A stretch of DNA of 64,000 nt from Sipunculus nudus (taxonomy: Eukaryota; Annelida; Sipuncula; Golfingiida; Sipunculidae). The position numbers and the translations under genes are program-made. The stretch covers positions 42,349,676 to 42,413,675 of the forward strand of contig CM049311.1 in the NCBI GenBank assembly GCA_026874595.1. The letters run 5' to 3'. Below are positions 4,741 to 60,929 of the stretch, piece after piece. Each line of letters begins with the position of its first letter. The stretch's first letter is position 1. The notes beneath the pieces are model-generated. The model did no database searches. It was not told the DNA's origin and saw only the letters and a program-made list of their open reading frames with translations.

Positions 4741-4768
4741 TTTTAGCTCAGCTGACTACAAGTCATCT

Positions 4769-5251
4769 TGTAGTCATTATAACCTGGTCCAGGATGCACT
4801 GGTGACAAACTTACAAGTCTCTCAGTTGATGTAAAAGATTCTTTATTTAAACTATAAAGGAGAAGGTATGCCGAGCCCTGTTTAGGGCTTGCCCCCCAGT
4901 TTGTAACTGCCTCTCAACACCGCGCTTCTCTCCCAGCATTATTCATACACCATTAGTAAACCAATCAGAGATTTCCCTGACGTGTCACCACAGATGCAAT
5001 TAAAGAAAGGTGTGCACAGGAGCTGAATGAAAGTGCAATTACACTGAATAGTGCAATTACACTGAATAGAGTTGCCATGTAATCAAGGCTAAGCAATTAC
5101 AGTCATTATATAAATACCTGGCAACTCAGCTCTGACATTTGAATACACAAAGTCCCAATTAACTTAAACACCTGCAACTTACATAATATATAATAATGAT
5201 GAAATACAGAGAGTGAGAATTGTAGTAATAGACTGGCCTTAGTACATTACA
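4769..5251 (+). mobile_element. Solo-LTR-like insertion (483 bp) inside the AD hairpin
   Basis: Removing this segment and one copy of ATCT restores the AD 5' hairpin seen intact at 26460 and 34030, so the borders are well defined. ATCT occurs on both sides (4765-4768 and 5252-5255), consistent with a 4-bp target-site duplication. The insert starts TGTA and ends TACA, has a TATATAAAT box at 5107-5115, and encodes nothing. TG...CA ends with a short duplication fit a solo LTR of a retrotransposon. No matching internal region exists in the window, and it does not resemble the LTR at 42301. Confidence 0.6.
5033..5069. repeat. Two tandem copies of an 18-bp unit
   Basis: The unit AGTGCAATTACACTGAAT is repeated twice. 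Its core GTGCAATTACAC is itself nearly palindromic. It lies within the solo-LTR-like insertion, upstream of the TATA-like box. Confidence 0.7.
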
Positions 5252-5275
5252 ATCTGAGCTATAGTCGTGGTCCTT

Positions 5276-5308
5276 TGTCCGTCGGCTGTCCGTCCGTCCG
5301 TCCGTCCG
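5276..5308. repeat. GTCC tetranucleotide microsatellite of AD head
   Basis: GTCC units follow the 5' hairpin of the AD element. The same position is occupied by GTCC/GTCT at 26481 and by ACGG/GGAC on the minus-strand copies at 20332, 58585, 59345 and 60838. Confidence 0.75.
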
Positions 5309-6165
5309 TTAAACTGGCACGTTTTGAAACCGTTGGACCTACGAATCTGAAATTCGGCATACCTTTAGATGTCCCCAAAATCTCCTACCATAACGAAAAT
5401 TGGGTCACTAGGACTTCTTTTCTTCGAATTATTAAGGAAAACCCTCAGTTTTCCATTAAAAACCCATTGTTACACTTCAAGACTGCCTAATATCAAAACC
5501 ACTGACCTGATATTGATCACTTTTCATATATATATTCCTCTATATACTTCCTATGTACATACCAGAAATTAGTTCAGTATTTTATAAATTTTTTAAGTAA
5601 TCGGCCTGAATATAATGCACTTTGTAAAAATTCAGAAATTATATTTTCTCCCTTAACTTGAGAATTGCTGAAGCTAAAAATTTTTTTTCAGGAATTTAAC
5701 TATATTTAATCAAGATTCAATTGTATACCCAAAATTAGATCTGAATTTTTCAAATTTTATAAGTCATTAGCATAAATATAAAATCGGTACCTTAAATTTT
5801 GCCAGGATTTGACCATGGCACATTTTTTTCCTGTAACTGCTGTGGATTTAATTTTCACAGCATGTTACCATTAGCATTTCATCTGTTAACATCTGAAATT
5901 TGAAACCAGTTGGTAAAAAATGTAGATTTTATTCAAGTTTACAAGGGCCATGTAAAGTATTGTTTAGATCAAGCAAGTGTTATGCAGTGTGCTAGAGCTC
6001 AGCTCCCCAGCTTCCCAAGCCAGCTCTCAGCTCCCAAAATTTGGCATACAGTTAGATGTCCCCCAAACCCCCTACCATACCAAAAGTTTGGTCACTAAAA
6101 CTTCATTCCTTCGAGATATTAAGAAAAAAATTCAGTTTTCAATTAAAAACCAATTGTTACACTTC

Positions 6166-6329
6166 AAGACTGCCTAATATCACAACCACTGATCTGACTT
6201 TCATCATGTATATTATACATGTTCTTCTATTCATACTCTTTGCACATAAGACTGCCTAATATCACAACCACTGATCTGACTTTCATCATATATAATATAC
6301 ATGTTCTTCTATTCATACTATTTGCACAT
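6166..6329. repeat. 82-bp tandem duplication within AD core
   Basis: Starting with AAGACTGCCTAATATCACAA, an 82-bp stretch is immediately repeated with few differences. It is a local duplication within the 680-bp core; other copies (for example 640-720) carry it once. Confidence 0.75.
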
Positions 6330-9300
6330 GCCAAAAATGATGTCAGTGTTGCGAAATTGTTTTTAAGTTGTGGGCCTAAACATTATGCACTTTGTAAAAA
6401 ATCAAGAAATATTATTAATCCCTTGAGAAATGCTGAAGCTAGAGATTTTTTGACAGGGATACAACATTATTTAATCAAGATTCAATTATATACCAAAAAT
6501 TAGTTCTGAATTTTCTAAATTTTACAAGTTATTAGCATAAATATTAAATCGGTACCTTAAATTTTGCCTAAATTTGACCATGGCATGTTTGTTTCCTGTA
6601 AGCACTGTTGATATAATTTTCATATTATGCAGAAATAAGGATTTTAGCATGTTACTTTCGAAAGTTGAAAGAAATTGGCCAAAAACTGTAGCTTATATTA
6701 TAGTTTTTATGAGACAATGTCAGACCCTTGGCTCTACACAGTCCCTCTTCAGTCACCTGTTTGTCCTTTAGTTGACCTCTCATGCCAATTATGCATGCTA
6801 GAGGCGGGGCATATACTAGTTAGCCAGGCAGCTTATGACTTGCCTCAGTTGATTCAGGTGTCCAACCCAACGCATCTATTAGTTGTTTAGACCAACAGCA
6901 TAACAATAAACAATAAATAAATAATTTTTTATAGGTCTGTAACAACAACTTTGAAAAAAAATCAATAGAAAAGGAATTTGATAGTTGATGAGTAACAGGG
7001 AATTACCTTGCAATTACTGATGTTTTATGCATTTTTTATTATTGGATGAAAAGGTATTCCAAATAACACCATTGAGTCACCTATGGTATTTTTCTTTTCA
7101 GTTTTAATAATGAAAAAAAAAATTATTAAACTATATTATACTACACTATATATGATTATATGAAGGGAATTAATGATAGACAAAGGCGCAATTGATAATA
7201 TTAATCTAAATGTCCAGGTCTTTTCCAAGTGTTTCAGCTTGTTAATTTATATTTATTTCAAATTAAAAAAAAATTTAAATATGTCAACATTTTTAATTTT
7301 ACTCAGACAAGCACTGAATAAAGATGTCAATATGTTTCACTAATGACATTTAGACACGTGGCTGTAACAGCTGGTACAAGACTATGTAAATAATCAAAAT
7401 TTATATTACTGGTTCCTATATTTCAGTTAATAAAATTAAATTTGCCCATCTATAGGTTTCTCCTTGTAAAATTTATAGGGTGTTCTTTTCCTTGGCTTTA
7501 TTTTTTACACATATAATGGTTTCATAGCTGAGATTACTCCATTTTTTTCTGATACTTTTTTTTAATAAAAAAATTTGAATATGATAAAAAAGTAGATCTT
7601 AGATAAGTTCTCATTATGATTTCTGTAATGTTAATAATTGTCATAAGACTCTTGCTATGTATAGTGTGTAGATTGATGTGACAGTAGTCCAAAGTGAATA
7701 TAATAGTTTTTTCTTTAAATATAAATAAAATTCATAAAACCAAGTACTTATGATCATTATTTAGATTTGTGGTATTTGTTTATTCTGGATTCTCAAGAAC
7801 TTTTGTTCAGCTGAAACAGTTATGATTATGGTGATTATTGGGCCAAATAACTATAAATTCTTGTTAATCTTCAGTGTAGCTTATTATACAGGTTCATTCA
7901 GTACAGGCATGTAAGTAGAATCCTTTACCTCCTATAGCGCAGATAACCCTTTGCTGGTCACCCTGTTTTGACAGGGGTCTCATTTGAGTGCTGGTCAGTC
8001 TTCAGGAATGTTTAACATCGCTCCTTCACTGAGCATCTTGATCTTTAGGTTGTCAACTTTTCACCTATCAACCAGATTTGTCATTTTATATAAAAATTTA
8101 TGTAAGATCATTATGTTAATATATTTAGATGATATGGATGGTCAAGATTTTTCTTAGTTCTAAATGGACAGTATTTTTAATGCTGGTTTTAGGTCAGTAT
8201 TATAATATTCAGTAGCTTAAATCCAAGTATCTGATTGGTTAGTCAGGTTTAGGAACATGTACGTAAGGGCTTTACAGGCCTCTGACAGACAGGCACTTTT
8301 AGACAATGCACGACTCTGTTCTGTTTTTATTTAGATTCATAAAGCCTATTTTATTAGATTAGATACTTTTTAAAGGAAGATCTTATGATCATTTTTGTAG
8401 TTAGAGTGTCAACCTTCAATATTTCGGATACATATTTTAATTGGTGAACTTAGAAGAAAATAAACTTTATTATTACCATATGGATGGACTTTATCATGAT
8501 TGTTGAGAAAAAGTGAACAAGAAAACATGGATGTATATATATAAAATCTACATGGAGCTAATTCCCCCATTTTCCTGGATGCCCAAAACTGAATAAATTC
8601 CAGACATGGTGAAGTACTTTGCAAATGTATTTGAATGCAAATATGAATATGTACTCCATAATTTCATGCATAAGGATAGGAATACTAGCAAAAATGAAAG
8701 TATTTGAATACAAATGCATTTATGAATATATTCTATAATATTGTTTTTAATAATCATCTATTACAATAATATTATTAAAAAATCAAAAGGTTATTATCAA
8801 AATCTTACATAATTATCATATTTAACAGCTGAGCACCGTGACCCATGGGTCCCTTGTTTTTATTTTGGCCTTATGCATCTGTAGTAATTTTTAGCGAACT
8901 TGTGAGCTAATGCGATGGTATGGGGGCGTCCGTCGTCTGAACTTTAACCCATACTATTTCGAAAACGACTGGAGCTAGCATCATGAAATTTAATGCAAAA
9001 AATAGCCATCTGAAAAACTCTGCATTTTCTTAGATTTGATAGAATAAAAGGTAAAAAAAACTTTAAAAATCTTCGCCTCCAAAACGGTCAAGCCAAATTG
9101 TTCAATATTTCAAAAGAATTATCCTAGAACATTGTTTTTTCAATCATATCAGAAAAGCTTAAGTTGGTCTTAAGGCCATTATTATGTCTATTTCAAACTA
9201 AGGACTGCAAAACTGTTCTTCTACAAAATTATTGTTTCAATTATAACTTCTGTAACATTGCACAAAAATTATTCGTAGGTGGCTTTTGTTCAAGTTTACT

Positions 9301-10349: not shown

Positions 10350-11795
10350 GTATCCGCCAAAACAAAGTTTTGTGGATAATATGTTTTTGACCAGGTTCCG
10401 CCGCCGCCGCCGCGTTTGTTTCCAGAATAGAACTCTGAGACCACTGGACAGATTTTTCCGAAACTTTACACGATTATCGGGTCACATGTGAACTGGTGCC
10501 AAAATATTTTGCATTGACCTCTGACCTTTCCTCTCTCCAGTGCGTCCATCTGTGCGTCTGTTTTGACACATTAACCCACATATCTCGGGAACCGTTTGAC
10601 CAATCAGAAAAAATTGTTCCACAAACGTATCCCTTGGATAGCTTTATAACATACATAAATACTGGTGGCGCCACCTGCAACCATTTTTACACAGCGTCCA
10701 TCTGTTCATCTGCCTTGGGATAAAATCACTCATATCTCTGCATTGGTTGGACTAGTCCACCTGAAATTTTGCATGTGTATACATCCTTGACAGCTTTCTT
10801 GATTTTATGACAGGTGGCGCCACCTACATTCACATTAACGCTGCATACATCCAAGCTCATAACTTGGAAACCGTTTGACCGATTTGGCCAAAATTTTGCA
10901 TAAGTATAGATCTCGCAAAGCTCTTTATCATAGCCAAAACTGGTGGCGCCACCTGCAACCATTTTTGCACAGCGTCCGTCTGTTTGTCTGCCGTGGGATA
11001 AAAATCACTCATATCTTTGCAGTGGTTTGACTTACCTGCTAAAATTTTGCAGGTTTATACATCTTGGAAAGCTTTCTGAATTATGTGGCAGGTGGCGCCA
11101 CCTACATTTATGTTTACGCTGCAGACATCCAGGCTTATATCTCGGGAACCGTTTGACCGATTTGGCAAAACTTTTGCATGTGTATAAATCTCACATAGCT
11201 CTTTATCATACGCAAAACTGGTGGCGCTATCTGCAACCATTTTTGCACAGCGTCCGGCTGTTTGTCTGCCGTGGGATAAAATCACTCTTATCTTGGCAGT
11301 GGTTTGACTTATCTGCCTAAAATTTTGCAGGTTTATACATCTTGGATAGTTTTCTTGATTTTATTACCGGTGGCGCCACCTATATTCACATTTACGCTGC
11401 AGACATCCAAGCTCATATCTCAGGAACTGTTCGACCGATTGGGCCAAAATTTTGCATGTATATAGATCTCACATAGCTCTTTATCACAGGCAAAACTGGT
11501 TGCGCCATCTGCAACAATTTTTGCACAGCGTCCGTCTGTTTGTCTGCCGTGGGATAAAATCACTCATATCTCGGCAGTGGTTTGACTTTTTGCATATGTA
11601 TACAACTTTGACAGCTTTATGGATTTTGTGGTAGGTGGCACAACCTACATACACATTTCGGCGGCAGACATCCATGCTAATAGGCAACACACCTCACTCT
11701 ATTTCCCCTTGCCACTCAATCAATGCCTCACTTCGCCTGTCCCACTCTGATTTCGGCGGATACACGTAGTCGCTTGTCGACTACCCGTATTCTAG
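10350..11795 (+). mobile_element. C-family Helitron/Helentron-like element C-1, complete, nested in B
   Basis: 5' end GTATCCGCC within a hairpin (arms around GTATCC.../...GGATA), then TATGTTTTTGACC and CCG repeats (10397-10413). The 3' end has GGCGGATAC (subterminal inverted repeat), the hairpin GTAGTCG-cttgt-CGACTAC, seven nt, then CTAG. The interior carries about 278-bp cores with GGTGGCGCCACC at 10664, 10813, 10942, 11091 and 11369, spaced alternately 149 and 129 bp. It sits between CCTACAATAATT and TTTTTTCACAGTGTG. An uninterrupted version of this host sequence occurs at 10213-10242, which defines both borders. Confidence 0.7.
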
Positions 11796-13785
11796 TTTTT
11801 TCACAGTGTGTGTCCCTTTTTATTTCTCAGTAGGGGTTTGATATATCAGTCTGAAATTGGGCATATATCTCTGAAAGCTTCGTTGTATACAAGACTGGTG
11901 CCAGCTACAATCATTTTTGTGTTTTGTGCACCCATGCCAGAATTTCAGCAGTGTTGTTTGTGTAATTGTTTCTTATTTAAAATGTTTATTACTTGCATTG
12001 TTCATATACATGAGAAGTAATGGTCCAGCATTGAAGCATTATACCTGATGTATTTCCCAATGCACAGGTTCGCATTAGGCCTGTAGGCCTTGTTTATATG
12101 TATACACAATTCGTATGGGGTACGTGAAATCAAATGGTTGGCGCGAGTTTATCAACATATTGCTTGCGTGTACTCTTGATATAATAGCGTCAGACATCGA
12201 CGTATGCATGTCGGCAGCAAAACTAATTGTTATAAAATAAGTCCATGCTGGTTGTGAAGTTAAAACAATACGCTGCAGTCTGAGTTCCAGCCGTTTGTTT
12301 TTAACTATTGTATGTTATATCGTACAAAATGAAGGACAATTATTGGCGATGACAGTCCATATCAGATACCGGCTGTCAAAGGTATTTTGCGCAAGGTGAC
12401 GGGCATAATCGAGGTACCGATTTTAAGTATCGTTTGGTTTCATCTTTTAAGTAAATACTTTTTTTACATATGTTTATTTAAACATTCTATTTTATTAAAC
12501 AGTTATTTAACATTCATTTATAACCATCCTTCTCATTCCTCTTTATCTGCAAAAGAAAAATCTCAAACTCCAGTCATTCATAAATTCTTATACTGACGCA
12601 AAATTAAATCGTCTGCACATCCGCGTGAACTCCAGAAAAATGCTAGGAATAATGGCAAATGCGATACAATGAAGAGAGTGAATTCAAATTTTGCTAAGAG
12701 ATCATTACGTTAATATAACCGCTTGATTCTCACAGAAAATTACACTAGGCTGTTAAAACCCTACCGCAGTTACATTTTCACGCGTGGGCAGACCTTACGG
12801 GCCATTGGTTCCAGTTGTAACTGCATAATCCATGGGATGTATATGGTCAACCTACTGCATTCTTCTAATCTGCATCAGATATTTGATTTAATGTTCTTTG
12901 TCAAACTTTCTCTGTCTCACTAATTTATTGACTTTGAATTTATATTATCATGGGCCAAACAACGATCCCAGGTCACCTGAATAGCTCCAGCTGGTATGGA
13001 TTCATGCTGGCGTAGTCTACGTGCGTTTTTAAAGAGGGGATTAGTTGATTTTCTTTTTCTAAGTGCATCACTTACAGGGAACGGAAAAGTGTGGGTGTAG
13101 CTTTTAATAGATGTGCGTATTATAATAGAAAATTTATGGTAGTAGAAGTAGTAGTAGTGGCAGCAGTGGTACTTAAGTGTAAAATTTGATTTTATTAATA
13201 TCCCTCTCTAACAACTGAAAATATACAATTATGCTGGAGGGCACTCTCCTATCCCACAATCATTATTTAACGCTGCACTGACCATGTTTCACACTATATG
13301 GGTGGGTTACGAAGGGTGGGCGCATAATCTCTAGCCAACCATGGTACCTCAGTAGGATTCCAGTCAACCTTCACCTTACAGGTAAGGCTCGTTTAACTTT
13401 ACAATTCGACAACGCTACCATTGGTTGCCCGCCTTTATACGATACTTCAACGGGAACATATTAGTATATATAACTTATTAGCATACCGGTATATCATATT
13501 ATCAACCCATGCAGTTATCTCACCATTCTTTCACTTTATAAAAGCCCATTTTAACGTTTTGTTCAATATTTATTCCAAATTATTGGAAGCCAGACATCTT
13601 TTTGCACGGTGTAATAAAATGTTGATAAATTCCTGCCATGTGAAATTTTACAGCTTCTCACAGCTAACTTATGAAGTAAAATGACATGTAATTCCCTTCG
13701 AATCCTGCATTTTATCGTCAAACCCTCTTTTCAAGTATACCTGGCATATTGACGATTAATATAACAGTAGGCCTACGTATATCGT

Positions 13786-15663: not shown

Positions 15664-16375
15664 CAAACGACCCATGGGTCACATCGCTCAGCTGAATTTT
15701 CGAAAATATTAGTAACTGCAAAATATTTTTATTTCTTTTAGTTTTTCTTGTATATTATCCTTAGAAAAGCTATGAGAATATGGCCCTGCTAAAATGAATT
15801 TGTAAATTATAGAATAGTGGACATGAGCTAAACCATTTAGTGATGCACCAAGGGAACAAATAGGCCTACGGTAAGTGTTATATAAAAGTAACATTTCATA
15901 AACAAATAATATGTGAAGGTAATTAAGTTTTCAAAAGTTAAATATATGGCCATATGGGTTAAAAATTATTCCCACAAAGTTTGACCAATATTCCTAAGCT
16001 TAATAACACTTTAACAGTGTTATTCACACCTAGGCTCGCCAACTTTAAGAGATATGACTGAAATGCTTCAAAGTATTTATATCTTCTTAAATCTTGTCAG
16101 TTAGCACTTACATTAAATCCTAATATTTTATCACATTTGAATATTAGGATTAAATTCCTGAAATTATTTTCTTAAAAAAAATCAAAATTGTCCAAGTCTC
16201 ATCAAAAAGAATTTATTTAACATTAAAATTATAAGATTCATCTTGTTTATTAGTCCTGTGTATTGAAGGGGTGGGTGGGGGAGGGGACTCCGTTGTTACT
16301 GCTCGTTGCTGAAAAAAATGTTAATTTTAAGATTCATCTAGATCATAGTACAGGTCTGTCAACAGAATGGGATTG

Positions 16376-16391
16376 GGGGGGGGGGGGGGGG
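16376..16391. repeat. Poly-G tract
   Basis: A G homopolymer of about 16 nt followed by GA repeats; lengths of such tracts are assembly-sensitive. Confidence 0.8.
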
Positions 16392-18199
16392 GAGAGAGAG
16401 AAAAAGTCTCCCTGTGGTATGGTATTAACTGCAGACAGCCTGATCAAGCTCAGCTCAGTGGAGAGAGGGCTTACCCTAGTGATGAGTTATAACATTATGC
16501 CAACAGCCTGGGGAGCATAGAGAGCTGCACTGAATGAACTACAGTGACCAAAGTGGACTGCTTGAGAATGTAATGGGAATACAGGAGCCTCCAAAAAATT
16601 CAATAACTAGCCTAATTTTGCAGCTTTTATTTGCAAATTTCAGATTTTAACAGGTTAAATCCTTATGTGCACATGCTGCGAAAATTTAATCCACAGTACT
16701 TACAGGAAAAAAAAACGTGCTGTGGCCAAAGTTGGGCAAAATTTAAGGTACAAATTTTTTATTTTTGCTAATAGTTTAAAAAATTTAAAAGATTTTGATC
16801 TTATTTTGGGTATACAATTTAATTTTGATAAATTAAAGGTATATTACTGGAAAAAAGTCCTTAGCTCTAACATGTTTTGTGATAAGCGATCAAATATCTT
16901 TCCTGATTGTTTACAAAATGCATTATTTGAGCCCATAACTTTTTAAATTATGTAATACAGACCTTATTCTGGCATGTACATAGGAACTATATAGAGGAAT
17001 ATTTATGGTAAATATGAGGAAAAACAGATGAGTAGTTTTGATATTAGGCGGTCCTGAAGTGTGAGAATAAGGAATACACTTATTATACCCTTTGCCACTT
17101 CTGGGGACTTTCAATGTTTTGTATCCTTGGCAACATTGAAAGAAAGCAGGTACAGATAAAAGAACCTTGACACTTTGAAGGTTTACATTCTTCCATAAAG
17201 ACATTTTTTCTGGATGCAAAATATTTTGCAGTTGCCTGCAGATATTAATTGCTGCCTCTCGTTGCCTTGTAAAGACCTTAATGTCGGGTTCAGGAATGAG
17301 CGATTCTCGCATGTAAACATATGAAATATGGATAAAACTGAAATAAAATTAAAATGTTCATTGTAGGGAAGTAGTCATGAAAACAACCATGAAAATAAGT
17401 GTTGAAACAGAAACAGAGCATTTATGCACAACCGCAGAATTATACCAACTTTCGCTGATAAATATTTTTCTAAAACGTCATTTCTAATATGATAAAGGAA
17501 CATTGCTTATTTACTTTTTTTAACAGTGCTACCATACTGCCTACATTAAAAATGCAACTCTACTGTTTATATACCATAAGAAATATGTTTAGAGAAGCAC
17601 CATGCGAATCACAATTACATATGCAAGTAACAAAAATGCAGATTATAAAATAAATGAAAAAAATTAGGCCTATAGCATTTACATAAATTCAGTTTTGGTA
17701 AAGATGGTGTAAAGCTGTCAGAGCTGATGTAGTCTTCAAATAAATCAATCAGCAATAAACAAACATTCTGTAAACACTGGTATATGAAGAATATATATGA
17801 TGATATCAATGTCAGTAATTGCACAATATAAAATACAACATAATTCATCATATAGTGGTTTTATGCAACATTGTCAACGGTTATATGCAACAGTCGTTCT
17901 AGATCTCCTTCACAGTGACCGGTGCGTGTTGTAACACAGTCTGCCGGTTTTCACCACCAGGACTGAAAATTGTAGTCAGACCAATGACAGCGCAGTATTG
18001 CATCGTGCATCCATGATGTTGAATTCTCCTACAATTCTACCTGAAATTAGAATGACGCTCAGCTGAATTCAAGAAATGTTGAACAATGAGGGAAATGACT
18101 GCCAAACAAATCATTAATTTTGTGAAGAGTCCTAAGAAATGGGTTTCAGTGGGCTTTTGGACAGATGACAACTTCATTTGAGTGTCTCATAAATAGAAA

Positions 18200-20330: not shown

Positions 20331-20419
20331 AGGGACGGCCGGACGGCCGGACGGACGGACATACGACGGACAAAGAGTGATCGCTATAGCTCAGATGACT
20401 TTCAGTCAGCTGAGCTAAA

Positions 20420-26404: not shown

Positions 26405-26489
26405 GGCGGGAAAATGTTCACCGACATCGCTTCGCCTTCGGTTTTTTAGCTCAGCTGACTGAAAGTCATCTGAGCTATAGCGATCACTC

Positions 26490-26573
26490 TTTGTCCGTCG
26501 TCCGTCTGTCCGTCTGTCCGTCTGTCTGTCTGTCCGTCTGTCCGTCTGTCCGTCTGTCCGTCCGTTAACCAGG
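26490..26573. repeat. GTCC/GTCT microsatellite of AD-4 head
   Basis: Alternating GTCC and GTCT tetramers directly after the 5' hairpin region. Confidence 0.85.
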
Positions 26574-28531: not shown

Positions 28532-29623
28532 GTATCCGCCAAAACGAAGTTTTGCGGATACTATGTTTTTGACAGAGTTCCTCCGCCGCGGCGGCGTTCG
28601 TTTCCAGAGAGCTCCTCGGAGACTAATGGACCGATTTTTCCCAAACTTACACCTATTATCGGGTCACATGTGAACTGGTGCCTAACCAATTTGCATTGAC
28701 CTCTGACCTTTTCTCTCTATCCAGTGACCATTTGTGGGTCTGTTTCCACTCATAAACCCTCATATCTCGGGAACTGTTTGACCGATCAGGAAATAAAATT
28801 GATACAAATGTAGCCCTTGGATTGCTTATAACATACACAAAAAATGGTGGCGCCACCTGTAACCATGTTTGCACAGTGTCCATCTGTTCATCTGCCTTGG
28901 GTTAAAATCACTCATATCTCTGCAGTGAATTGACTGACTCACCTGAAATTCGTCATGTGTATACATCCAGGATAGCTTTCTTGATTTTATAACAGGTGGC
29001 GCCACCTACGTTCACGTTCACGCTGATGACATCCAAGCTTATATCTCGGGAACCGTTTGACCGATCAGGAAATAAAATTTATACAAATGTAGCCCTTTGA
29101 TAGCTCTGTAACATACACAAAAAATGGTGGCGCCACCTGTAACAATGTTTGCACAGGGTCTGTCTGTTAGTCTGCCGTGGCCTAAAATCACTCATTTCTC
29201 TGTAGTGGTTCGACATAACTGCCTAAAATTTTGCAGGTTTATACATTGTGGACAGCTTTCTTGATTTTATGACAGGTGGCGCCACCTACATTCTAGTTAA
29301 CGCTGGACACATTCATACACAAAACTGGAGGGGTTACCTGCAAAGATTTTTGCACAGTGTTTGTCTGTTTGTCTGCCATGGGCAAAAATCGCTCATATAC
29401 ATGTTGTGGTTTGACTTTTCTGCCTAAAATTTTGCAGGTGTATACAACTTGGACAGTTTCTGGATTTGTGGTAGGTGGCACAACCTACATACACATTTAG
29501 GCTGCAGACATCCATGCTAAAATGCAACATACCTCACTCTATTTCCCCTTGCCACTGAATCCATGCCTCACTATCCGATTTTGGCAGATACATGTAGTCA
29601 CTTGTCGGTTACCAGTATTCTAG
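28532..29623 (+). mobile_element. C-family element C-2, complete, nested in AD-4
   Basis: 5' end GTATCCGCC; the hairpin arms GTATCCGCcAAAAC and GTTTTGCGGATAC pair with one bulged base around a GAA loop, then TATGTTTTTGAC and CCG repeats. GGTGGCGCCACC lies at 28846, 28995, 29126 and 29275 (spacing 149/131/149, as in C-1). The 3' end has a hairpin-like GTAGTCAcTTGTcGGTTAC and ends TATTCTAG. Flanks are CACCTGTATTTTT and TTTTAAAAG, i.e. inside the T-rich segment of an AD core whose intact form is at 26832-26880. Confidence 0.7.
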
Positions 29624-29805
29624 TTTTAAAAGTTTACACATTTTTCTCTATTTTTGAGATATATAAATACAGACTAAATCTTGGCCTGTTGGTTAATCTG
29701 TTTGATGCTTCAGTTGAATGGGTATATACTACCATTCTGATGATAAAATTTCCTTTTGCGAATCTCTTCCCAGTCAGCTGAGCGTCATGACCCATGGGTC
29801 ACTTG

Positions 29806-45792: not shown

Positions 45793-45793
<1 letters not shown>

Positions 45794-50460: not shown

Positions 50461-52133
50461 GTTTTTATTTCAGTTAATAAATATTTAACATGCCCATCTC
50501 AAATTCATTCTTTATTGTATAATTTGCTGGGTGTTCTTATCCCTGTATTTTAACTAGACATTTCTTGGCACCGCAGGTGCCAGAGTATCCCCAGACATAG
50601 TGGGCCCCCCCCCCTTTAAGAATAGACCCCAATTTTTAGCAGCATATACTGACACTTGGCATATTTATTGTTTCTTCCATCTAAAAATCCACAATCTTGT
50701 TGAAGATGTTGGTCCTGTGACCTTGATCTTTTTAAAGATGTGTCCTGTGACCTTGACCTTTGACCTCATGACCCAGAAATCAATTCGGGTCTTGCTTTTC
50801 CAATGGGTCAAATACAAGTCAAGTTTGAAATCCATACATCAATAAAAGAAGGAATTATCATCCAGAAACTAATTTTTAGACAGATAGCTCCTGTGGCCTT
50901 GATCTTTGACCTTGTGACCCCAAAATTTATATGGATCATCCACTATTGGCAAGTGAGCTATATATTCAAGATGGAAGACCTGGGATGAAAGTTTGGCTTA
51001 AAATGCATCCACAGTATCTTTTAAAATGCCAGTCCAGTGACCTTGACCTTTGACCTCATGACCCTAGAACCTATAGGGTTCTTACTTTAGTGGTGGGCCA
51101 TACATAAGTCATGTTTGAAATCAATATGGCTATCAACACTGGAGATATCATAAGAGGTGTGTGATTTTCACCATATATGGCAATATTCAAGGTCAAGGCC
51201 ACTATCATAGGAAAGGTCATGACCCCAATTTAAATAAACATCATCCCATAACCCATACCTATGTATATGCATAATATAAAAGAAATCTGTCCATTTGTTT
51301 TTATTTCAGTTAATAAATATTTAACATGCCCATCTCAAATTCATTCTTTATTGTATAATTTGCTGGGTGTTCTTATCCCTGTATTTTAACTAGACATTTC
51401 TTGGCACCGCAGGTGCCAGAGTATCCCCAGACATAGTGGGCCCCCCCCTTTAAGAATAGACCCTAATTTTTAGCAGCATATACTGACACTTGGCATATTT
51501 ATTGTTTCTTCCATCTAAAAATCCACAATCTTGTTGAAGATGTTGGTCCTGTGACCTTGATCTTTTTAAAGATGTGTCCTGTGACCTTGACCTTTGACCT
51601 CATGACCCAGAAATCAATTCGGGTCTTGCTTTTCCAATGGGTCATATACAAGTCAAGTTTGAAATCCATACATCAATAAAAGAAGGAATTATCATCCAGA
51701 AACTAATTTTTAGACAGATAGCTCCTGTGGCCTTGATCTTTGACCTTGTGACCCCAAAATTTATATGGATCATCCACTATTGGCAAGTGAGCTATATATT
51801 CAAGATGGAAGACCTGGGATGAAAGTTTGGCTTAAAATGCATCCACAGTATCTTTTAAAATGCCAGTCCAGTGACCTTGACCTTTGACCTCATGACCCTA
51901 GAACCTATAGGGTTCTTACTTTAGTGGTGGGCCATACATAAGTCATGTTTGAAATCAATATGGCTATCAACACTGGAGATATCATAAGAGGTGTGTGATT
52001 TTCACCATATATGGCAATATTCAAGGTCAAGGCCACTATCATAGGAAAGGTCATGACCCCAATTTAAATAAACATCATCCCATAACCCATACCTATGTAT
52101 ATGCATAATATAAAAGAAATCTGTCCATTTGTT
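50461..52133. repeat. 835-bp direct tandem duplication
   Basis: 50461-51295 and 51296-52133 are nearly identical, differing mainly in the poly-C length at 50608 versus 51440. Each unit holds about 93 bp of AD-type host sequence (compare 7421-7505) and the CTAG-side portion of a C' element. The junction GTTTTTA is shared by the host flank start (50461) and the C' interior (52131), so unequal exchange at this short identity explains it. Confidence 0.85.
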
Positions 52134-55100
52134 TTTACTTATAATGCTCACAGTACTGTAAGGTGGCAATTTTGGGGGTATTAAACGGCACAAAACAAGT
52201 AAAGAACTAGACATTTCTTGGCACCGCAGGTGCCAGAGTATCCCCAGACATAGTAGGCCCCCCTCCTACAAGAACAGACCCCCATTTTTAGCAGCATATA
52301 CTGACACTTGGCATATTTATTGTTTATTCCATCTAACGATCCACAATCTTGTTGAAGATGTTGGTCCTGTGACCTTGATCTTTTTAAAGATGTGTCCTGT
52401 GACCTTGACCTTTGATCTCATAACCCCAAAATCAATTTGGGTCTTGCTTTTCCAATGGGACATATGCAAGTCAAGTTTGAAATCTATACATCAATAAAGC
52501 AGGAATTATCATCCAGAAACTTATTTTTGGACAGATGGCTCCTATGACCTTCACCTTTGACCTTGTGACCTCAAAATTGATAGTGTTCTTCCTCTCTTGG
52601 CAGGAGAACTATATGTGCAAGATGAAAGATATGAGATGAAATGTTTGGCTAAAAATGCATCCACATCTTTTTAAAGATGTGTCCTGTGACCTTGACCTTT
52701 GACCTCATGACCCCAAAATCAATTTTGGTCTTACTTTTCCAATGGGACATATATAAGTCAAGTTTGAAATCCATACATCAATAAAAGCAGGAATTATCAT
52801 CCAGAAACTAATTTTTGGACATATGGCTCCTGTGACCTTCATCTTTGACATTGTGACCTCAAAATTGATAGGGGTCTTCCACTCTTGGCAGGTGAACTAT
52901 ATGTGCAAGAGGAAAGATCTGAGATGAATTGTTTGGCTGAAAATGCATCCACAATCTTTTTAAAGAGGTTTCCTGTGACCTTGACCTTTGACCTCATGAC
53001 CCCAAAATCAATTTGGGTCTTGCTTTTCTAATGGGTCAATAACAAAGCCAAGTTTGAAATCCATACATCAGTAAAAGAAGGAATTATCATCCAGAAACTA
53101 ATTTTTGGACAGATGGCTCCTGTGACCTTCACCTTTGACCTTGTGACCTCAAAATTGATAGGGGTCTTCCACTCTTGGCAGGTGAACTATATGTGCAAGA
53201 TGAAAGATCTGAGAAGAATTGTTTGGCTGAAAATGCATCCACAATCTTTCTAAAGAGGTTTCCTGTGACCTTGACCTTTGACCTCATGACCCCAAAATCA
53301 ATTTGGGTCTTGCTTTTTCAATGGGACATATATAAGTCAATTTTGAAATCATTACATCAATAAAAGCAGGAATTATCATCCAGAAACTAATTTTTGGACA
53401 TATGGCTCCTGTGGCCTTGACCTTTGACCTTGTGACCCCAAAATTTATAGGGGTCTTCCACTCTTGGCAGGTGAACTATATGTGCAAGATGAAAGATCTG
53501 AGATGAATTGTTTGGCTGAAAATGCATCCACAATCTTTTTATAGAGGTTTCCTGTATCTTTGACCTCATGACCTCATGACCCCTCTTGCTTCTCCAATGG
53601 GTCAAATACAAGTCAAGTTTGAAATCCAAACATCAATAAAAGAAGGAATTATCATCCAGAAACTAATTTTTGGACAGATGGCTCCTGTGACCTTCACCTT
53701 TGACCTTGTGACCTCAAAATTGATAGTGTTCTTCCTCTCTTGGCAGGAGAACTATATGTGCAAGATGAAAGATATGAGATGAAATGTTTGGCTAAAAATG
53801 CATCCACATCTTTTTAAAGATGTGTCCTGTGACCTTGACCTTTGACCTCATGACCCCAAAATCAATTTTGGTCTTACTTTTCCAATGGGACATATACAAG
53901 TCAAGTTTGAAATCCATACATCAATAAAAGCAGGAATTATCATCCAGAAACTAATTTTTGGACATATGCCTCCTGTGACCTTCATCTTTGACATTGTGAC
54001 CTCAAAATTGATAGGGGTCTTCCACTCTTGGCAGGTGAACTATATGTGCAAGAGGAAAGATCTGAGATGAATTGTTTGGCTGAAAATGCATCCACAATCT
54101 TTTTAAAGATGTGTCCTGTGACCTTGACCTTTGACCTCATGACCCGAAATTCAATTCCGGTTTTGCATTACCAATGGGTCAATAACAAAGCCAAGTTTGA
54201 AATCCATACATCAATAAAAGAAGGAATTATCATCCTGAAACTAATTTTTGGACAGATGGCTCCTGTGACCTTCACCTTTGACCTTGTGACCTCAAAATTG
54301 ATAGTGTTCTTCCTCTCTTGGCAGGAGAACTATATGTGCAAGATGAAAGATATGAGATGAAATGTTTGGCTAAAAATGCATCCACATCTTTTTAAAGATG
54401 TGTCCTGTGACCTTGACCTTTGACCTCATGACCCCAAAATCAATTTTGGTCTTACTTTTCCAATGGGACATATACAAGTCAAGTTTGAAATCCATACATC
54501 AATAAAAGAAGGAATTATCATCCAGAAACTAATTTTTGGACATATGGCTCCTGTGACCTTCATCTTTGACATTGTGACCTCAAAATTGATAGGGGTCTTC
54601 CACTCTTGGCAGGTGAACTATATGTGCAAGAGGAAAGATCTGAGATGAATTGTTTGGCTGAAAATGCATCCACAATCTTTTTAAAGATGTGTCCTGTGAC
54701 CTTGACCTTTGACCTCATGACCCGAAATTCAATTTCCGGTTTTGCATTTCCAATGGGTCAATAACAAAGCCAAGTTTGAAATCCATACATCAATAAAAGA
54801 AGGAATTATCATCCAGAAACTAATTTTTGGACAGATGGCTCCTGTGACCTTCACCTTTGACCTTGTGACCTCAAAATTGATAGGGGTCTTCCTCTATTGG
54901 CAGATGACTTATATGTGCAAGATGAAAGGTCTGAGATGAAATGTTTGGCTAAAAAATGCATCCACATGTTTTTAAAGATGTGTCCTGTGACCTTGACCTT
55001 TAACCTCATGACCCCAAAATCAATTTTGGTCTTGCTTTTCCAATGGGACATATATAAGTCAAGTTTGAAATCCATACATCAATAAAAGCAGGAATTATCA

Positions 55101-55930
55101 TCCAGAAACTAATTTTTGGACATATGGCTCCTGTGACCTTCACCTTTGACCTCTGACCTCAAAATTGATAGGGGTCTTCCACTCTTGGCAGGTGAACTAT
55201 ATGTGCAAGATGAAAGATCTGAGAAGAATTGTTTGGCTGAAAATGCATCCACAATCTTTCTAAAGATGTGTCCTGTGACCTTGACCTTTGACCTCATGAC
55301 CCCAAAATCAATTTGGGTCTTGCTTTTTCAATGGGACATATATAAGTCAAGTTTGAAATCCATACATCAATAAAAGCAGGAATTATCATCCAGAAACTAA
55401 TTTTTGGACATATGGCTCCTGTGACCTTCACCTTTGACCTTGTGACCTCAAAATTGATAGGGGTCTTCCACTCTTGGCAGGTGAACTGTATGTGCAAGAT
55501 GAAAGATCTGAGAAGAATTGTTTGGCTGAAAATGCATCCACAATCTTTCTAAAGAGGTTTCCTGTGACCTTGACCTTTGACCTCATGACCCCAAAATCAA
55601 TTTGGGTCTTGCTTTTTCAATGGGACATATATAAGTCAATTTTGAAATCATTACATCAATAAAAGCAGGAATTATCATCCAGAAACTAATTTTTGGACAG
55701 ATAGCTCCTGTGGCCTTGACCTTTGACCTTGTGACCCCAAAATTTATATGGATCATCCATTATTGGCAAGTGAGCTATATATTCAAGATGGAAGACCTGG
55801 GATGAAAGTTTGGCTTAAAATGCATCCACAGTATCTTTTAAAATGCCAGTCCAGTGACCTTGACCTTTGACCTCATGACCCTAGAACCTATAGGGTTCTT
55901 ATTTTAGTGGTGGGCCATACATAAGTCATG
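50730..55930. repeat. 289/290-bp tandem core array with DR1 motifs
   Basis: About 17 tandem units, each with two related halves of about 145 bp. One half has GTGACCTTGACCTTTGACCT-CATGACC, the other GTGACCTTCACCTTTGACCT-TGTGACC. The period of 289 or 290 is not a multiple of three, so the repeated short ORFs across it are not a gene. These are the cores of the C' elements. The most uniform section is 52680-55670. Confidence 0.9.
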
Positions 55931-56883
55931 TTTGAAATCCATATGGCTATCAACACTGCAGATATCATAAGAGGTGTGTGATTTTCACCATATATGGCAA
56001 TATTCAAGGTCAAGGCCACTATCATAGGAAAGGTCATGACCCCAATTTAAATAAGCATCATCCCATAACCCATACCTATGTATATGCATAATATAAAAGA
56101 AATCTGTCCATTAGTTTTTGACTTATAATGCTCACAGTGCTGTAAGGTGGCAATTTAGGGGGTATTAAACGGCACGAAAACAAGTAAAGAATAATAGGTG
56201 GCGCCACCAGTTTCTGGAACTTGACAACCCTATCCATGATCTTCCATCAACTTGATTTTGGGATAAATCCATGCAAGATTTCTTGAGATATTAAAGAATT
56301 TGTGTGATTTTCCCCAAAATTGGACCTATTCAAGGTCAAGGACACTCTCCTAATAAAGGTCATGACCTCATTTTAAATAGGCATCGTCCTCTAACCCATA
56401 TCTATACATATACCAAGTTTGGTAAAGTTCCGTGAAATATTTTTTGGGTAATCGCGCCAACAAGATTCATATGCGGCGGCGGCGGCGGCGGCGGGACCGG
56501 TATGAAAACATAGTATCCCCCGACTTTGTCTGGGGATACAATAATAGGTGGCGCCACCAGTTTCTGGAACATGACAACCCTATCCATGATCTTCCATCAA
56601 CTTGATTTTGGGATAAATCCATGCAAGATTTCTTGAGATATTAAAGAATTTGTGTGATTTTCCCCAAAATTGGACCTATTCAAGGTCAAGGACACTCTCC
56701 TAGTAAAGGTCATGACCTCATTTTAAATAGGCGTTGTCCTCTTACCCATATCTATACATATACCAAGTTTGGTAAAGTTCCGTGAAATATTTTTTGGGTT
56801 ATCGCGCCAACAAGATTTATATGCGGCGGCGGCGGCGGGACCGGTATGAAAACATAGTATCCCCCGACTTTGTCTGGGGATAC
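51390..56883 (-). mobile_element. Outer C'-family element, interrupted by inner copy
   Basis: On the minus strand the 5' end is at 56883: GTATCCCC-agac-aaa-gtcg-GGGGATAC hairpin, TATGTTTTCATACC and CCG repeats (56823-56838). The 3' end is at 51390: GGGGATAC, TCT, hairpin GGCACC-tgc-GGTGCC, nine nt, CTAG. The copy is split at 52206/56540 by the inner C' element. Another 3' terminus at 50554 comes from the 835-bp duplication. Flanks are TT on both sides of the element strand. GGTGGCGCCACC lies at 56547. Confidence 0.65.
52207..56539 (-). mobile_element. Inner C'-family element, complete, 4.3 kb
   Basis: On the minus strand it runs from GTATCC at 56539 (hairpin 56513-56539, CCG repeat 56473-56494) to CTAG at 52207, with the hairpin GGCACC-tgc-GGTGCC. 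It carries GGTGGCGCCACC at 56197 and the bulk of the DR1 array. It is inserted at AAAGAA / AATAATAGGTGG of the outer copy. The same sequence uninterrupted (GTAAAGAATAATAGGTGG) is at 56185-56202 inside this element, so the empty site is available in the same locus and shows AA (TT) on both sides of the insert. Confidence 0.75.
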
Positions 56884-56906
56884 AATGATCTAATACATGT
56901 AATAAA

Positions 56907-58666
56907 CAAGGGACCCATGATGGGTCACTGTGCTCAGCTGAAGTTGACCTTGAAGGTAAAAATCTAAAATAATATCAAATGGAGTTAGTGTAAGAGGAAG
57001 AGGTAATATAGGCTATGGTTCGTTTATATGAGTTGTTTGTATTGATAAGCAAGAAATTGTTGCAAATAATATTATGTGACCTAACCATGTGTTTCCTAAT
57101 GTTGAAACTGAAGCATGTGAGCAGTTTGTGAACAAATGATCTGTACTATTACCATGATCATTAGTTGGCTTTTTGATTAACTGTTGACATTTCAGTAGTT
57201 TACACATTTGTTTAATTGAATCTAGTTTTTTGCATGATAAATATTATTTAATATATATGTATTTTTTTATTTTATGAAATGTATACAGTTGAAATATTAT
57301 TAATTAACAAATAAATACAGGGTAAATAAAGGCTGATCTCCAATTCTGCTGAGGCAGAAAATAATGAACAAATGTTTGTATTAAATCCTCATTTTTTTAT
57401 CACATCAAATTTTTATAAATCTCAATCTTGTCAGATAGCACCACATCATGCATACAAATGTTTATTTATTTTTTACCACAAAAATAAATCTTTGAATCTG
57501 CAAAACAATAAATATATAAAAAAATTCTTGATTTAGATTTCACAATTTTAAATTGTGTCTTTATTTATCCATAATGTGCTTCATATTTTATAAATTTAAG
57601 CTAACTGATGGGTTAAAGTATATTTGTTATAATCATTTAAAAGAAAATTGATTTCTTTAAAAATGCCACATAAACACAACATGGCATCTTCTGGATTACA
57701 TCTTTTTAAGGAAATTTTTTGTATATATTTGAGTGGAAAGAGCAATTTAGGAGATACAGTGAAAACAATAACAATTACTGCATAACACTTGGTGGGTTGG
57801 GTTTGCGGGGAGGGGGGTGGGGGGGGATTGGGTTTGTGATATGAAAATAACAGTACACCTGTCACAGCAGGGGATCTCCCCCAGTGACTGTAACAAATCA
57901 GAAACCCTTGCATAGCTGAATTTTAGTGACCTGGAGTGGGACCCTGCATCTTTAATCTGTTATCAAAACAAATGACTACAATAGAGCCTCAAGTAAAAAA
58001 TAAGTAATAAGTCTAATTTTCAAGCTTTTTTTCAAATTTCAGATTCAAACAAATTAAATACTTATGTTTACATGCTGTGAAAATTGAATCAATGGTACTT
58101 ACAGGAAAAAAAGTGCCATGGTCAAAGTTGGGCAACATTTAAGTCATTCATTTTATTTTTATGCTAATAACTTAAAGAAAAAATACAAAATTCAGATCTA
58201 ATTTTTGGTAAACAATTAAAACTTAATTAAACATAGTAATATACTTGGGAAAATAGACTCTAGTTTCAAAATTTTTCATGTTAAGTGAGTAAATATTTTT
58301 CCTGATTTTTTTATAAAGTCTATTATGTTTGGGCCCATAACTTTAAAAAAAAAATTATACTTAATAGACTTAATTTCTTGCATGTACACAGGAACTATAT
58401 AGAGGAAAATTCATGTTAAATATGAGGAAAAACAGGAGAGTGGTTTTGGTATTAGGCATTTTTCCTTAATTTCTAAAAGGGACGAAATCGCAAAGACCCA
58501 GTTTTCGGCTTGGTAGGAGATCTTGGGGACATCTAATATAATGCCGAATTTTGGATTCCTAGGTCTAAACGTGCCAGATCTACGGAGGGACGGAGGGACG
58601 GACGAACGACGGACAATGGACCACGACTATAGTTCATGCAGATGACTTATAGTCAGCTGAGCTAAA
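56907..58666 (-). mobile_element. AD-family element AD-7, both ends
   Basis: Left: CAAGGGACCCATGATGGGTC and GTGCTCAGCTGAAG (3' end in reverse). Right: ACGG/GGAC microsatellite (58585-58615), CTATAGTTCATGCAGATGAC, ttatAGTCAGCTGAGCTAAA (5' end in reverse). A 680-type core lies next to the 5' end (58000-58560); the middle is AT-rich. It starts 24 bp from the outer C' 5' end. Confidence 0.65.
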
Positions 58667-59047
58667 AATCAATTTTATCAATAAATTAACATCTTTAACA
58701 ATTTTTTTTATGTTATATGGTTTTAATAAGATTCCCGCTATATTTGGCTTGTAGACAGAAGTGAAAGTTATCACAAAAATTAATTATTTAATGGAAATTG
58801 AACCCATAAAACTGGTAATTTTTAACATTCTTGTATAATTTGTGAAATATATTATATCCCGGATTCTTAACAATTTGATGGACGAAAATTGAATAAATGA
58901 TAAATATGATGTTATATGGTTTTACTTATGATTATAAGAATCCTACCATTTTTGGTGAGTACAATAATGTGGATGTTTTCAAAAGTTAATTAAACAGTTT
59001 ATTCTTTTAATATATATTAACCAATTTTAATTTGTGACATTGACTAA
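58667..59047. other. AT-rich interval without recognisable gene
   Basis: Nothing recognised. Confidence 0.5.
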
Positions 59048-59437
59048 CAAGTGACCAATGGGTCATGACGCTCAGCTGACAAGCATGACCTGTATTTAAA
59101 GCCTTCCCCAACACCTGTCCTGCTATGGTATCAAAGGGCAAGCATAACAATAATTGCATAACTATAACATTATATGTGAACTGTTGGATTACTTTTTCTG
59201 GGAGGTGCAAACGCACCCTGTAACTCAAGAAATATAGGTCACAGCGACCTAATTTCAGATCTGCAAGGAGATCTTTTTAGAACCTCTAAGACTGCATAGG
59301 GTTCATGTATTTAGCCCTTACAGTTACAATTTGTGCCCTGCTAACGGCCGGACGGCTGGCTGGACGGACAGACGGAAGGAGGACGGACAAAGACCCATCG
59401 CTATAGCACAGCATGACTAAAAGTCAGCTGAGCTAAA
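59048..59437 (-). mobile_element. Short AD-family element, 390 bp, both ends
   Basis: Left: CAAGTGACCAATGGGTCATG and CGCTCAGCTGAC. Right: GGAC/ACGG microsatellite (59345-59385), CCATCGCTATAGCACAGCAT, gactaaAAGTCAGCTGAGCTAAA. A single partial A-core (TAGGTCACAGCGACCTAATTTC) lies between. One of the two shortest complete AD copies in the window. Confidence 0.7.
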
Positions 59438-60169
59438 AATCACTGAAACTGTACTGACAAAAGGATTTCTAAGGTGGCTAACTGGCAGACATAATGGATT
59501 TCTGACAAGTCTGACATTTGATATCACACATCCTCCAATAAGAGACCAAACTTGTAGCAAATTCTCCAAAGGATGTTACAGTAATGAATGTCCAAAACAA
59601 TTCAAAAGGTATTTTCAGGCCCTCATATTAGATTTATAGATATGCAAATGTAAAAAGTGTAAGTCCAATATTTTTTATTATCACTCTGCTTTTCAATAGG
59701 ATCAGCAGGGTAGGTAAACTGCAAAACCTGAAAGAAAAGAAATGCAAAAAGCATGACTAAAAGTCTTGTAATAAAAAAAAAGCCATCCTAAATCCAGGTA
59801 CACATCCACATATTATGAGAACAAACATTTGCTTTTATATCTGGGGATTTATATAAAAATATTCAGATATCTAGGAAACTAAGTTTATTGCTATGATTCC
59901 ATAAAATAAACTGCAAAATGTTCCCATCATCTTATAAATCAGTAGCTAAACCTTAATACTATACTCTCACAGTCTTAATACCTGGCTGAAGCATTCCGGC
60001 AACAGTGTTTTTGTTATGCAGGAACGAGGAATTTATCACTCAGCCTTATCACTTAACAGGCTGATACAAAATAGAGTTATATGTTACCAACATCACTCAC
60101 AATTACAGCCACACATTGAGATGTACCAGTTGGAGTGCAATGGTTATATGTAAAAGAAAAATAGAGATG
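59438..60169. other. Interval without recognisable gene
   Basis: No ORF or RNA gene recognised. The left end of the following AD element may lie here but was not found. Confidence 0.4.
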
Positions 60170-60929
60170 GTCTACCTTTGACCTTATGAACTCAACATCA
60201 ATAGGCTTCTTCCCCTATTGGTAGGTAAGCCATATATGACAGATGGAAAGTATAGATTGAAAAGTTTGCCTGAAAATGACTCCACGCAAGAAGATGGTGC
60301 TGTGAACTTGACCTTTGACCTCAAAATCAACAGGTCTTTTCCCCTGTTGGCAGAGAAGCGATATCAGTGCTGAAAGGTTTGGAATGAAAAGTCTAGCTTA
60401 AAATGTGTCCACAACCTTTTTAAAGAAGTGGATCCTGTGACCCTGACCTTTGACCTTGTGACCTCAACATCTATAGGATTCTTCTCCCACTTAGTAGGTG
60501 AACTATATGTGAAAGATCAAAGGATGAAAGGTTTGGCTTAAAATGCATCCACAGGCTTTTCAAAGAAGTTGGTTCTGTGACCTTGACCTTGTGACCTCAA
60601 AATAATTATGGTTCTTCCCCTGTTGGTAGGTGAGCTGTATGTGAAAGATGGAAGGTTTGGGATGAAAATTTTGGCTAAAAGAATTATTTCTGTGGGGTGC
60701 AAACACACCCCATAACTTCAAAAATATAGGTCGCAGTGACCTAATTTCAGGTTTGCAAGGAGATCTTTTTAGAACCTCTAAGACTGCATAGGATTCATGG
60801 CCCTAGCCCCTACGGTAACGATTTGTGCCCTGCTAACGGACGGACGGCCGGCCGGACGGACAGACGGAAGGACGACGGACAAAGACCCATCGCTATAGCC
60901 CAGCATGACTGAAAGTCAGCTGAGCTAAA
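60170..60929 (-). mobile_element. AD-type 5' end joined to DR1-type cores
   Basis: The right end is a standard AD 5' end in reverse (GGACGG repeats 60838-60880, CGCTATAGCCCAGCATGACT, gaAAGTCAGCTGAGCTAAA). Its interior, 60170-60670, is made of divergent C'-type cores with DR1 motifs at 60309-60321 and 60444-60456, plus TTGGTAGGTGAGCTGTATGT-like segments. So an AD end is attached to cores otherwise found in C'. Confidence 0.6.

Follow-up and report, generated by a model that had tools for sequence, protein, structure and literature searches.

Four abundant families of gene-less, probably HINE-type transposons with two classes of ends in the Sipunculus nudus genome

Results and Discussion

Elements in the window

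The 64,000-bp stretch of Sipunculus nudus DNA analysed here (the window; contig CM049311.1 of assembly GCA_026874595.1, positions 42,349,676 to 42,413,675) is densely occupied by rolling-circle transposons that carry no genes. They fall into four families, AD, B, C and C', and the end pairs of all four were found within the window (Table 1). Transposons of this kind (HINE type) are known, and their copy number here is very high. Inspection of the window elements bore out the first-pass annotation, which had placed a microsatellite after the head and a tandem core in each family. An Rfam search of the window at gathering scores gave 0 matches. The flank shared by the C' 3' ends at 50554 and 51390 makes a local duplication probable.

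Table 1. Coordinates of element ends and internal features in the window
Feature	Position	Strand	Evidence
AD heads	4742, 26445, 34003	+	motif matches in window
AD heads	20419, 58666, 59437, 60929	-	motif matches in window
AD-ended long element, core different	4742..8856	+	
AD-ended element	15664..20419	-	
AD element TTTAGC...CTTG with nested C (composite)	26445..29805	+	ends; empty site 15250-15390; composite recurs elsewhere
AD 5' head, subterminal repeat and inverted copy, DNA hairpin	26445..26477	+	z -4.13, 0/200 shuffles
GTCC-type microsatellite behind AD head	26492..26565	+	sequence
AD tandem core, units ~335 bp with GGTGGCGCCACC	26564..28531	+	
C copy nested in AD, tail mutated	28532..29623	+	1,024 exact genome matches to its tail
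AD 3' end: repeat, palindrome GACCCATGGGTC, CTTG	29773..29805	+	5,146 genome-wide
Three AD heads (58666, 59437, 60929)	58582..60929	-	
B heads, some with mismatches	3068, 8890, 21657, 35205, 36572	+	
B element, no intact tail recognised	3068..4426	+	
B element, core units ~177 bp	21657..23216	+	
B element, canonical head	35205..36560	+	
B 3' end CACAGGTTCGC + AGGCCTGTAGGCCT + TG, sole intact one in window	12063..12092	+	4,513 genome-wide
Stand-alone C, GTATCC...CTAG, CCG microsatellite, core ~278 bp	10350..11795	+	3,170 tails genome-wide
C' 3' ends	50554, 51390, 52207	-	
C' 5' ends	56539, 56883	-	
C' element(s) with a 289-bp tandem core; heads 56539 and 56883, 3' end 52207	52207..56883	-	1,689 tails genome-wide
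Two more C' 3' ends (50554, 51390), identical flank	50554..51393	-	

Abundance, ends and insertion sites

Exact pattern matches, which are not numbers of elements, were counted across the genome (1.43 Gb): the AD head pattern occurred 19,292 times, and the tail patterns of AD, B, C and C' occurred 5,146, 4,513, 3,170 and 1,689 times, respectively, with 0 matches to the reversed pattern in every case. Together with the end pairs in the window, these counts uphold the first-pass annotation's claim that one end design runs through the four families, and the genome copies place the sharp boundaries of AD, B, C and C' where that annotation had set them.

The ends fall into two classes: AD and B run TTTAGC...CTTG and lie in T-runs, and C and C' run GTATCC...CTAG and lie mostly at TNATT. 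The subterminal repeat is 11 bp long in AD and B, 9 bp in C and 8 bp in C', against a HINE yardstick of subterminal inverted repeats of approximately 11-15 bp at both ends. An inverted copy of the 5' repeat is present in every family except B; the hairpin that such a copy forms is a feature of Cg_HINE and DINE-1, but not of every HINE. All four families have asymmetric ends in which the 3' repeat lies internally and is followed by a palindrome, conserved in all four tail patterns and variable in folding strength.

A 5' hairpin or head and a 3' hairpin had been proposed for the design as a whole. In folding tests the 5' hairpin held for AD, C and C', where 0 of 200 shuffles each folded as well, but not for B (z +0.83; equalled or bettered by 159 of 200 shuffles). 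At the 3' end the palindrome stood in all four tails; that of AD is perfect, yet its folding as a DNA hairpin is unremarkable relative to shuffles (z 0.02). Flanking T-T, also proposed earlier, describes the T-runs around AD and B, but C sits at more than a bare T-T, since 12 of 15 C heads carry the TNATT target. All 30 of 30 C tails read CTAGTT, with random sequence beyond. An empty site was found for one of the seven AD copies tested, and it was exact, with no target duplication. Uninterrupted sites were found for 7 of the 15 C copies tested, and two T were missing in 6 of those 7; the extra TT is ambiguous and may represent a 2-bp TT duplication at C. No empty sites were found for B or C', whose targets (a T-run in the case of B) are read from the flanks.

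The mutated tail of the C copy nested in AD is found in 1,024 exact copies genome-wide, and this C has been amplified together with AD. Since it was amplified inside AD, it is the outer ends that appear to set the extent of the mobilised DNA.

The palindrome GGTGGCGCCACC is common to otherwise unrelated cores, and occurs at 111,729 places genome-wide versus 14 for its reverse. It is exact in 15 of 41 AD core units, 5 of 6 B units, and, in two C classes, 36 of 79 units in one and 81 of 127 in the other. For the 12-mers flanking it, the mean modal fractions in the same class order were 0.34, 0.51, 0.30 and 0.33, with maxima of 0.75, 1.00, 0.79 and 0.63. A special constraint on the palindrome within units was considered and rejected, as a slight excess over the flanking 12-mers was seen solely in the last class (81/127).

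Rep genes and the search for an autonomous partner

The Helitron_like_N domain gave at least 143 matches in the genome and none in 14 control genomes. Rep, PIF1 and endonuclease domains were found, indicating that endonuclease-bearing Helentrons are present. Thirty of the Helitron_like_N matches were inspected with 1.5 kb on either side, along with two 15.5-kb Rep regions. At least five Rep groups were distinguished among these 30 loci, endonuclease-bearing Helentrons being the commonest type; two degraded loci, L009 and L010, look like canonical Helitrons. To locate a Helentron terminus, we aligned the copies on C7, C8 and C11; those on C7 and C11 were 98.7-99.6% identical across the whole compared stretch, and no terminus was reached within it.

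The first-pass annotation had proposed looking for an autonomous Rep/helicase element with the same termini. None came to light: the four end pairs, with mismatches allowed, had no match in the 30 Rep loci or the two 15.5-kb regions. A looser scan of these two regions for the ends gave only short motif matches of 8-11 bp, which were taken as chance, and inverted-repeat scans of them gave only AT-rich pairs or isolated 9-mers. With none of the four ends present in the 30 Rep loci and two regions scanned, a single common autonomous partner is unproven, and mobilisation of the families as one set stays a proposal of the first-pass annotation.

Tails of C' at C1:63.71-63.74 Mb are spaced approximately 9.76 kb apart. 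This array was considered as a tandem autonomous element and rejected, as two samples (2.6 kb) taken from one unit were HINE-like and contained no Rep reading frame.

Relationship to known rolling-circle elements

The likeness between Cg_HINE of Crassostrea gigas (PMC7492417) and the present families extends to a 5' subterminal repeat with inverted copy, a GTCC-type microsatellite, a tandem core, a 3' repeat plus palindrome, a TT preference without target duplication, and the existence of multiple families with unrelated cores. Unlike in Cg_HINE, there is a second class of ends here, that of C and C', in which the repeats are shorter (those of Cg_HINE are usually 11-12 bp), the microsatellite is CCG, the element closes with CTAG and the site is mostly TNATT; in addition, B is without the inverted copy, and a nested composite has been amplified. 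The account of DINE-1/HINE and Helentrons (PMC4067079) shares with this genome the layout, the T-rich target, and a Rep with the GSPH signature, a helicase and an endonuclease. It ties HINEs to autonomous partners bearing the same ends, whereas no same-ended partner was found here in the 30 Rep loci and two 15.5-kb regions. Under its rule of at least 11 bp of identical repeats, AD, B, C and C' are separate families. The C and C' elements resemble Helitron2 in anatomy, with asymmetric inverted repeats and end hairpins, and in a TNAT^T-like site. In Fusarium oxysporum, the FoHeli elements of Helitron2 type (PMC5148889) likewise have a 5' hairpin and asymmetric inverted repeats, and FoHeli1/2 insert between TNAT and T, similar to the C class; their termini differ from those of C, FoHeli1/2 ending in ATTTT, and the likeness to C is one of DNA anatomy and site.

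We consider it very likely that the four families belong to the Helentron/Helitron2 branch as non-autonomous rolling-circle transposons (HINE type), and that Rep-helicase proteins encoded elsewhere move them in trans. Anatomy, counts, boundaries and the empty sites of AD and C are observed, as are Helentron Rep, helicase and endonuclease genes; from them we infer movement in trans, the pairing of Rep with ends and a single-strand intermediate. The 5' subterminal repeat, folded into a hairpin in all families but B, would give the start signal, and the 3' repeat plus palindrome would mark the stop. A single strand with CTTG or CTAG at its end would be copied and then inserted at a T-rich site, with no duplication of the target.

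Of the earlier proposal that the families form one Helentron-mobilised set, the shared HINE/Helentron design stands, but there are two end and target classes, and the Rep loci and regions examined held no partner with these ends. Two Rep lineages, or two specificities, are probably required for the AD/B and C/C' ends. That a single Helentron lineage moves all four families, the differences in ends and targets being tolerated variation, seems unlikely: the identical layout, the nesting and common strand direction of the families, and the predominance of endonuclease-bearing Helentrons among the 30 Rep loci would fit it, but termini and targets differ by class, those loci hold several Rep groups, and none of the ends was seen in them or in the two 15.5-kb regions. 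Two end classes with different targets lie side by side, and could be matched to Rep lineages.

Canonical Helitron identity (3' CTRR, A-T insertion) for C and C', leaving only AD and B as Helentron-type, is improbable. Although a hairpin and CTAG close both families and the canonical-looking L009 and L010 are present in the genome, the 5' inverted repeat of C matches its 3' repeat, its target is TNATT and not an A/T junction, and the 5' TC is absent from all four families; of the canonical marks, only the CTAG end of C and C' fits. Least probable is a cut-and-paste identity, as MITEs bounded by terminal inverted repeats. Both ends do carry inverted repeats and the TT beside C is readable as a 2-bp duplication, but the ends are asymmetric and the AD empty site lacks a duplication. 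The TIR/TSD signature of such elements, named earlier as evidence that would count against the grouping, was looked for in the four families and not found, though C may still hide the TT duplication.

Strand agreement along the chromosome

Neighbouring elements of the four families tend to share orientation along the chromosome. In part of one chromosome, and for these families only, the direction of 118 of 146 ends was predicted from ends of the other families at a distance of 5-50 kb, and in the first 1.16 Mb of C1 the ends are all minus. This agreement resembles replication-coupled single-strand insertion. The bacterial IS200/IS605 elements transpose as single strands with an orientation that follows replication direction (PMC5371812), and the strand-coherent stretches seen here look alike; the likeness is limited to the strand pattern, here read from sequence alone, and the enzyme is a different one. 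It is possible, and suggested here only tentatively, that the insertion direction of the four families follows strand domains of tens of kb to approximately 1.1 Mb, the intermediate being joined preferentially into one fork strand, perhaps the lagging-strand template. The main alternative is that the strand domains arise from transcription-coupled strand exposure. If insertion is replication-coupled, old rolling-circle insertions would be a fossil record of fork direction and a eukaryotic counterpart of IS200/IS605, and the strand pattern would allow the way in which such elements integrate in eukaryotes to be tested directly.

A chromosome-end rule, with left ends minus and right ends plus, was rejected, as it fits one of four places near other contig ends (C8:80139053 + fits; C7:545982 +, C10:282708 + and C13:70348121 - do not). 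Target supply as the sole cause of the agreement was judged insufficient, since TNATT occurs 216 times in sense and 202 times in antisense orientation in nine window elements; for TTTT the corresponding counts were 516 and 406.

End structure and abundance

The first-pass annotation had grouped four gene-less HINE-type families (non-autonomous Helentrons), AD, B, C and C', as one Helentron-mobilised set with a common end design. The end motifs of all four were detected in the window, together with the claimed microsatellites and tandem cores. The window spans C6:42349676-42413675, and none of the features identified in it was recognised as a host gene. In the genome searched (1,426,538,692 bp, 153 contigs), exact 3' ends numbered 5,146 for AD, 4,513 for B, 3,170 for C and 1,689 for C', and the AD head (5' end) pattern occurred at 19,292 places; each of these patterns spelled backwards gave 0. 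The AD tail (3' end) count is slightly above that of ordinary tails because 5 of 100 places among the matches listed are tail-to-head junctions on the other strand, a tail being followed by a head. A B tail also directly adjoins a B head in one fetched host locus (L071:1683-1747). Such junctions in AD and B would be expected from rolling-circle concatemers or from insertion next to a tail. C' tails are found at four places approximately 9.76 kb apart (C1:63714007-63743316), where HINE-rich DNA appears to have undergone tandem segmental duplication.

AD and B start with TTTAGC, end with CTTG, have GTCC-type microsatellites and insert into T-runs. C and C', whose heads give a 77.6% alignment over 67 bp, start with GTATCC, end with CTAG, have CCG microsatellites and mostly use TNATT sites. 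DNA folding of the ends (200 shuffles each) revealed strong 5' hairpins in AD (-10.6 kcal/mol, z -4.13), C (-10.9 kcal/mol, z -6.16) and C' (-10.4 kcal/mol, z -5.04), all three built from an outer stem of 8 bp, one unpaired base and an inner stem capped by a loop of 3 nt; the claim of a 5' hairpin or head was confirmed as a hairpin in these three, but folding gave none in B (z +0.83). The 3' hairpins proposed for the families folded with z scores of -2.28 in C and -3.17 in C', versus -1.52 in B and 0.02 in AD. The end design is real and of an already known kind: the plan of these families is that of Cg_HINE in the accessible text of PMC7492417, and the C/C' site resembles that of Fusarium FoHeli1/2, described in the available part of PMC5148889 as inserting between TNAT and T. 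The grouping was right as architecture, but one shared mobiliser is unproven and two end classes fit better than a single mobilised set.

The otherwise unlike AD, B and C cores have in common a 12-bp palindrome, GGTGGCGCCACC, with 21 occurrences in the window, against 0 in 100 shuffles, and 111,729 places genome-wide, versus 14 for the reversed 12-mer. Another tandem repeat (41197) also contains it, as does the sequence immediately outside two C' heads. Within families its conservation was not clearly above that of flanking 12-mers. The one literature match listed for the string concerns a bacterial chitinase.

Positions of features within the window
Feature	Position	Strand
AD composite with nested C copy	26445-29805	+
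Empty site matching the AD composite	15250-15390	
piggyBac-like DDE transposase	37720-39634	+
Retrotransposon RT	42960-44138	+
GGTGGCGCCACC	3541, 10664-11369, 18559-20061, 22125, 26824-29275, 35674, 41197, 56197, 56547	

Boundaries and target sites

The 3' end of C was CTAGTT, with random sequence beyond, in 30/30 fetched loci. Heads were within reach in 15 of the 30; all had T at -5 and -1, and 12 had the full TNATT (exceptions L053, L072 and L073). Among the fetched sequence, a relative of the target without the insertion (an empty site) was found for 7 of the 15 loci with a head, with two T missing in six and a less clear alignment in L051. The two T beside C may be either part of the element or a target duplication. 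Flanks alone define the C' boundaries, with TNATT at 3/3 heads and CTAG then TT at 3/3 tails, two further rows being left out because they are palindromic heads seen from the opposite strand.

AD heads had T at -2 in 15/15 and at -1 in 14/15, and 19 of 21 tail-like matches read TTG then TT. Seven full AD copies tested for empty sites yielded one clean case, the composite, where comparison with an empty site also in the window showed exact rejoining after CTTG and no duplication. For B, flanks alone were used: T was at -2 in 5/5 heads and at -1 in 4/5, and one of three tails examined directly adjoins a B head.

Amplification of a nested C copy

In the composite at 26445-29805, the nested C follows TTTTT rather than TNATT. 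A C copy lies in the same place, approximately 190 bp before the AD tail, in 6/10 fetched AD tails, with similarly mutated C tails, and is missing in the other four. In a second fetched set, which overlaps these ten, all six AD regions were composite, and of four window AD tails of the form in question, the one at 29773 has a nested C. One mutated C tail form had 1,024 exact matches genome-wide (reversed control 0); in C1:0-17.2 Mb, 15 of 19 places among the matches listed had an exact AD tail 188-190 bp away. The simplest reading is a single nested C insertion, after which the composite was amplified through the AD ends.

Coding partners

The genome contains at least 143 matches to Helitron_like_N (150 of 195 candidates scored), and 14 control genomes contain none. 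Thirty fetched Rep loci form at least five groups. The GSPH signature, which denotes Helentrons in the usage of PMC4067079 (accessible text), is present in 27/30 Rep fragments and absent from L035; the L009 and L010 fragments stop short of the site. One long region of contig C7 is a Helentron that encodes pieces of STPR, DUF6570, OTU, Rep, PIF1 and Exo_endo_phos, interrupted by a shift of frame and a stop. A second Helentron (L041:3154-7001 with L042:2-3412) occupies a single frame of 2,420 aa, with a Herpes_teg_N-like domain first, in contrast to the OTU and STPR of the C7 copy, and DUF6570, Rep, PIF1 and Exo_endo_phos_2 domains. The proposed search for an autonomous Rep element with the same termini found none of the four end pairs in the fetched Rep loci and long Rep regions, pieces that stop short of the Helentron termini. 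From the shared architecture, we infer that AD, B, C and C' are moved in trans by Helentron Rep proteins.

Strand domains

The most surprising result was agreement in strand across families: in C1:0-17 Mb, neighbouring AD, B, C and C' elements share direction far more often than chance. Strand data were the first 100 places listed per pattern, all on C1, and concern HINE-type families alone on part of one chromosome; the mutated C tail, whose matches also reach C2, was left out. In C1:0-1.16 Mb, 79/79 ends of five patterns among the matches listed were minus (47 AD heads, 8 AD tails, 16 B, 3 C and 5 C'; head and tail of one element may both count). In C1:1.2-16.9 Mb, again among the matches listed, the majority strand among the three remaining families 5-50 kb away predicted the strand of 118/146 ends, matched by 0/2000 random rotations; with five junction signs uncorrected the figure was 111/144, 94 further ends with no or tied neighbours being left out. 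Excluding pairs inside the first 1.2 Mb of C1, cross-family agreement was 23/23 below 5 kb (nested copies possibly among them), 46/58 at 5-20 kb, 65/86 at 20-50 kb, 97/169 at 50-100 kb, 198/354 at 100-200 kb and 1496/3148 at 1-2 Mb. Single family pairs were weaker, AD-C being reached by 57/2000 rotations and B-C by 31/2000 (signs uncorrected). C compared with C alone showed neither strand agreement at 5-50 kb (9/18) nor an excess of runs, which counts against a strand-domain reading.

An AD-, B- or C'-type piece was within 1.5 kb of 10/30 C copies, the nearest in the same direction in 9/10. Duplication does occur elsewhere on C1, but the flanks of 38 fetched insertions included 6 pairs alike, one in register, and duplication therefore does not explain those insertions. 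The supply of TNATT is equal on both strands. The agreement can be likened to IS200/IS605, in which transposon orientation follows replication (PMC5371812, accessible text); in the available parts of the literature on Helitron and rolling-circle orientation, no report of a replication- or orientation-linked strand bias was recognised for Helitrons. A rule placing minus at left contig ends and plus at right failed on other contig ends.

Two stretches of the window, 0-40 kb and 46-61 kb, differ in direction: by hand count, plus outnumbers minus 11 to 1 below 40 kb, and all 8 counted at 48-61 kb are minus, duplicated C' ends being among the eight. The piggyBac-like transposase and the retrotransposon RT sit at this switch in HINE orientation from plus to minus.
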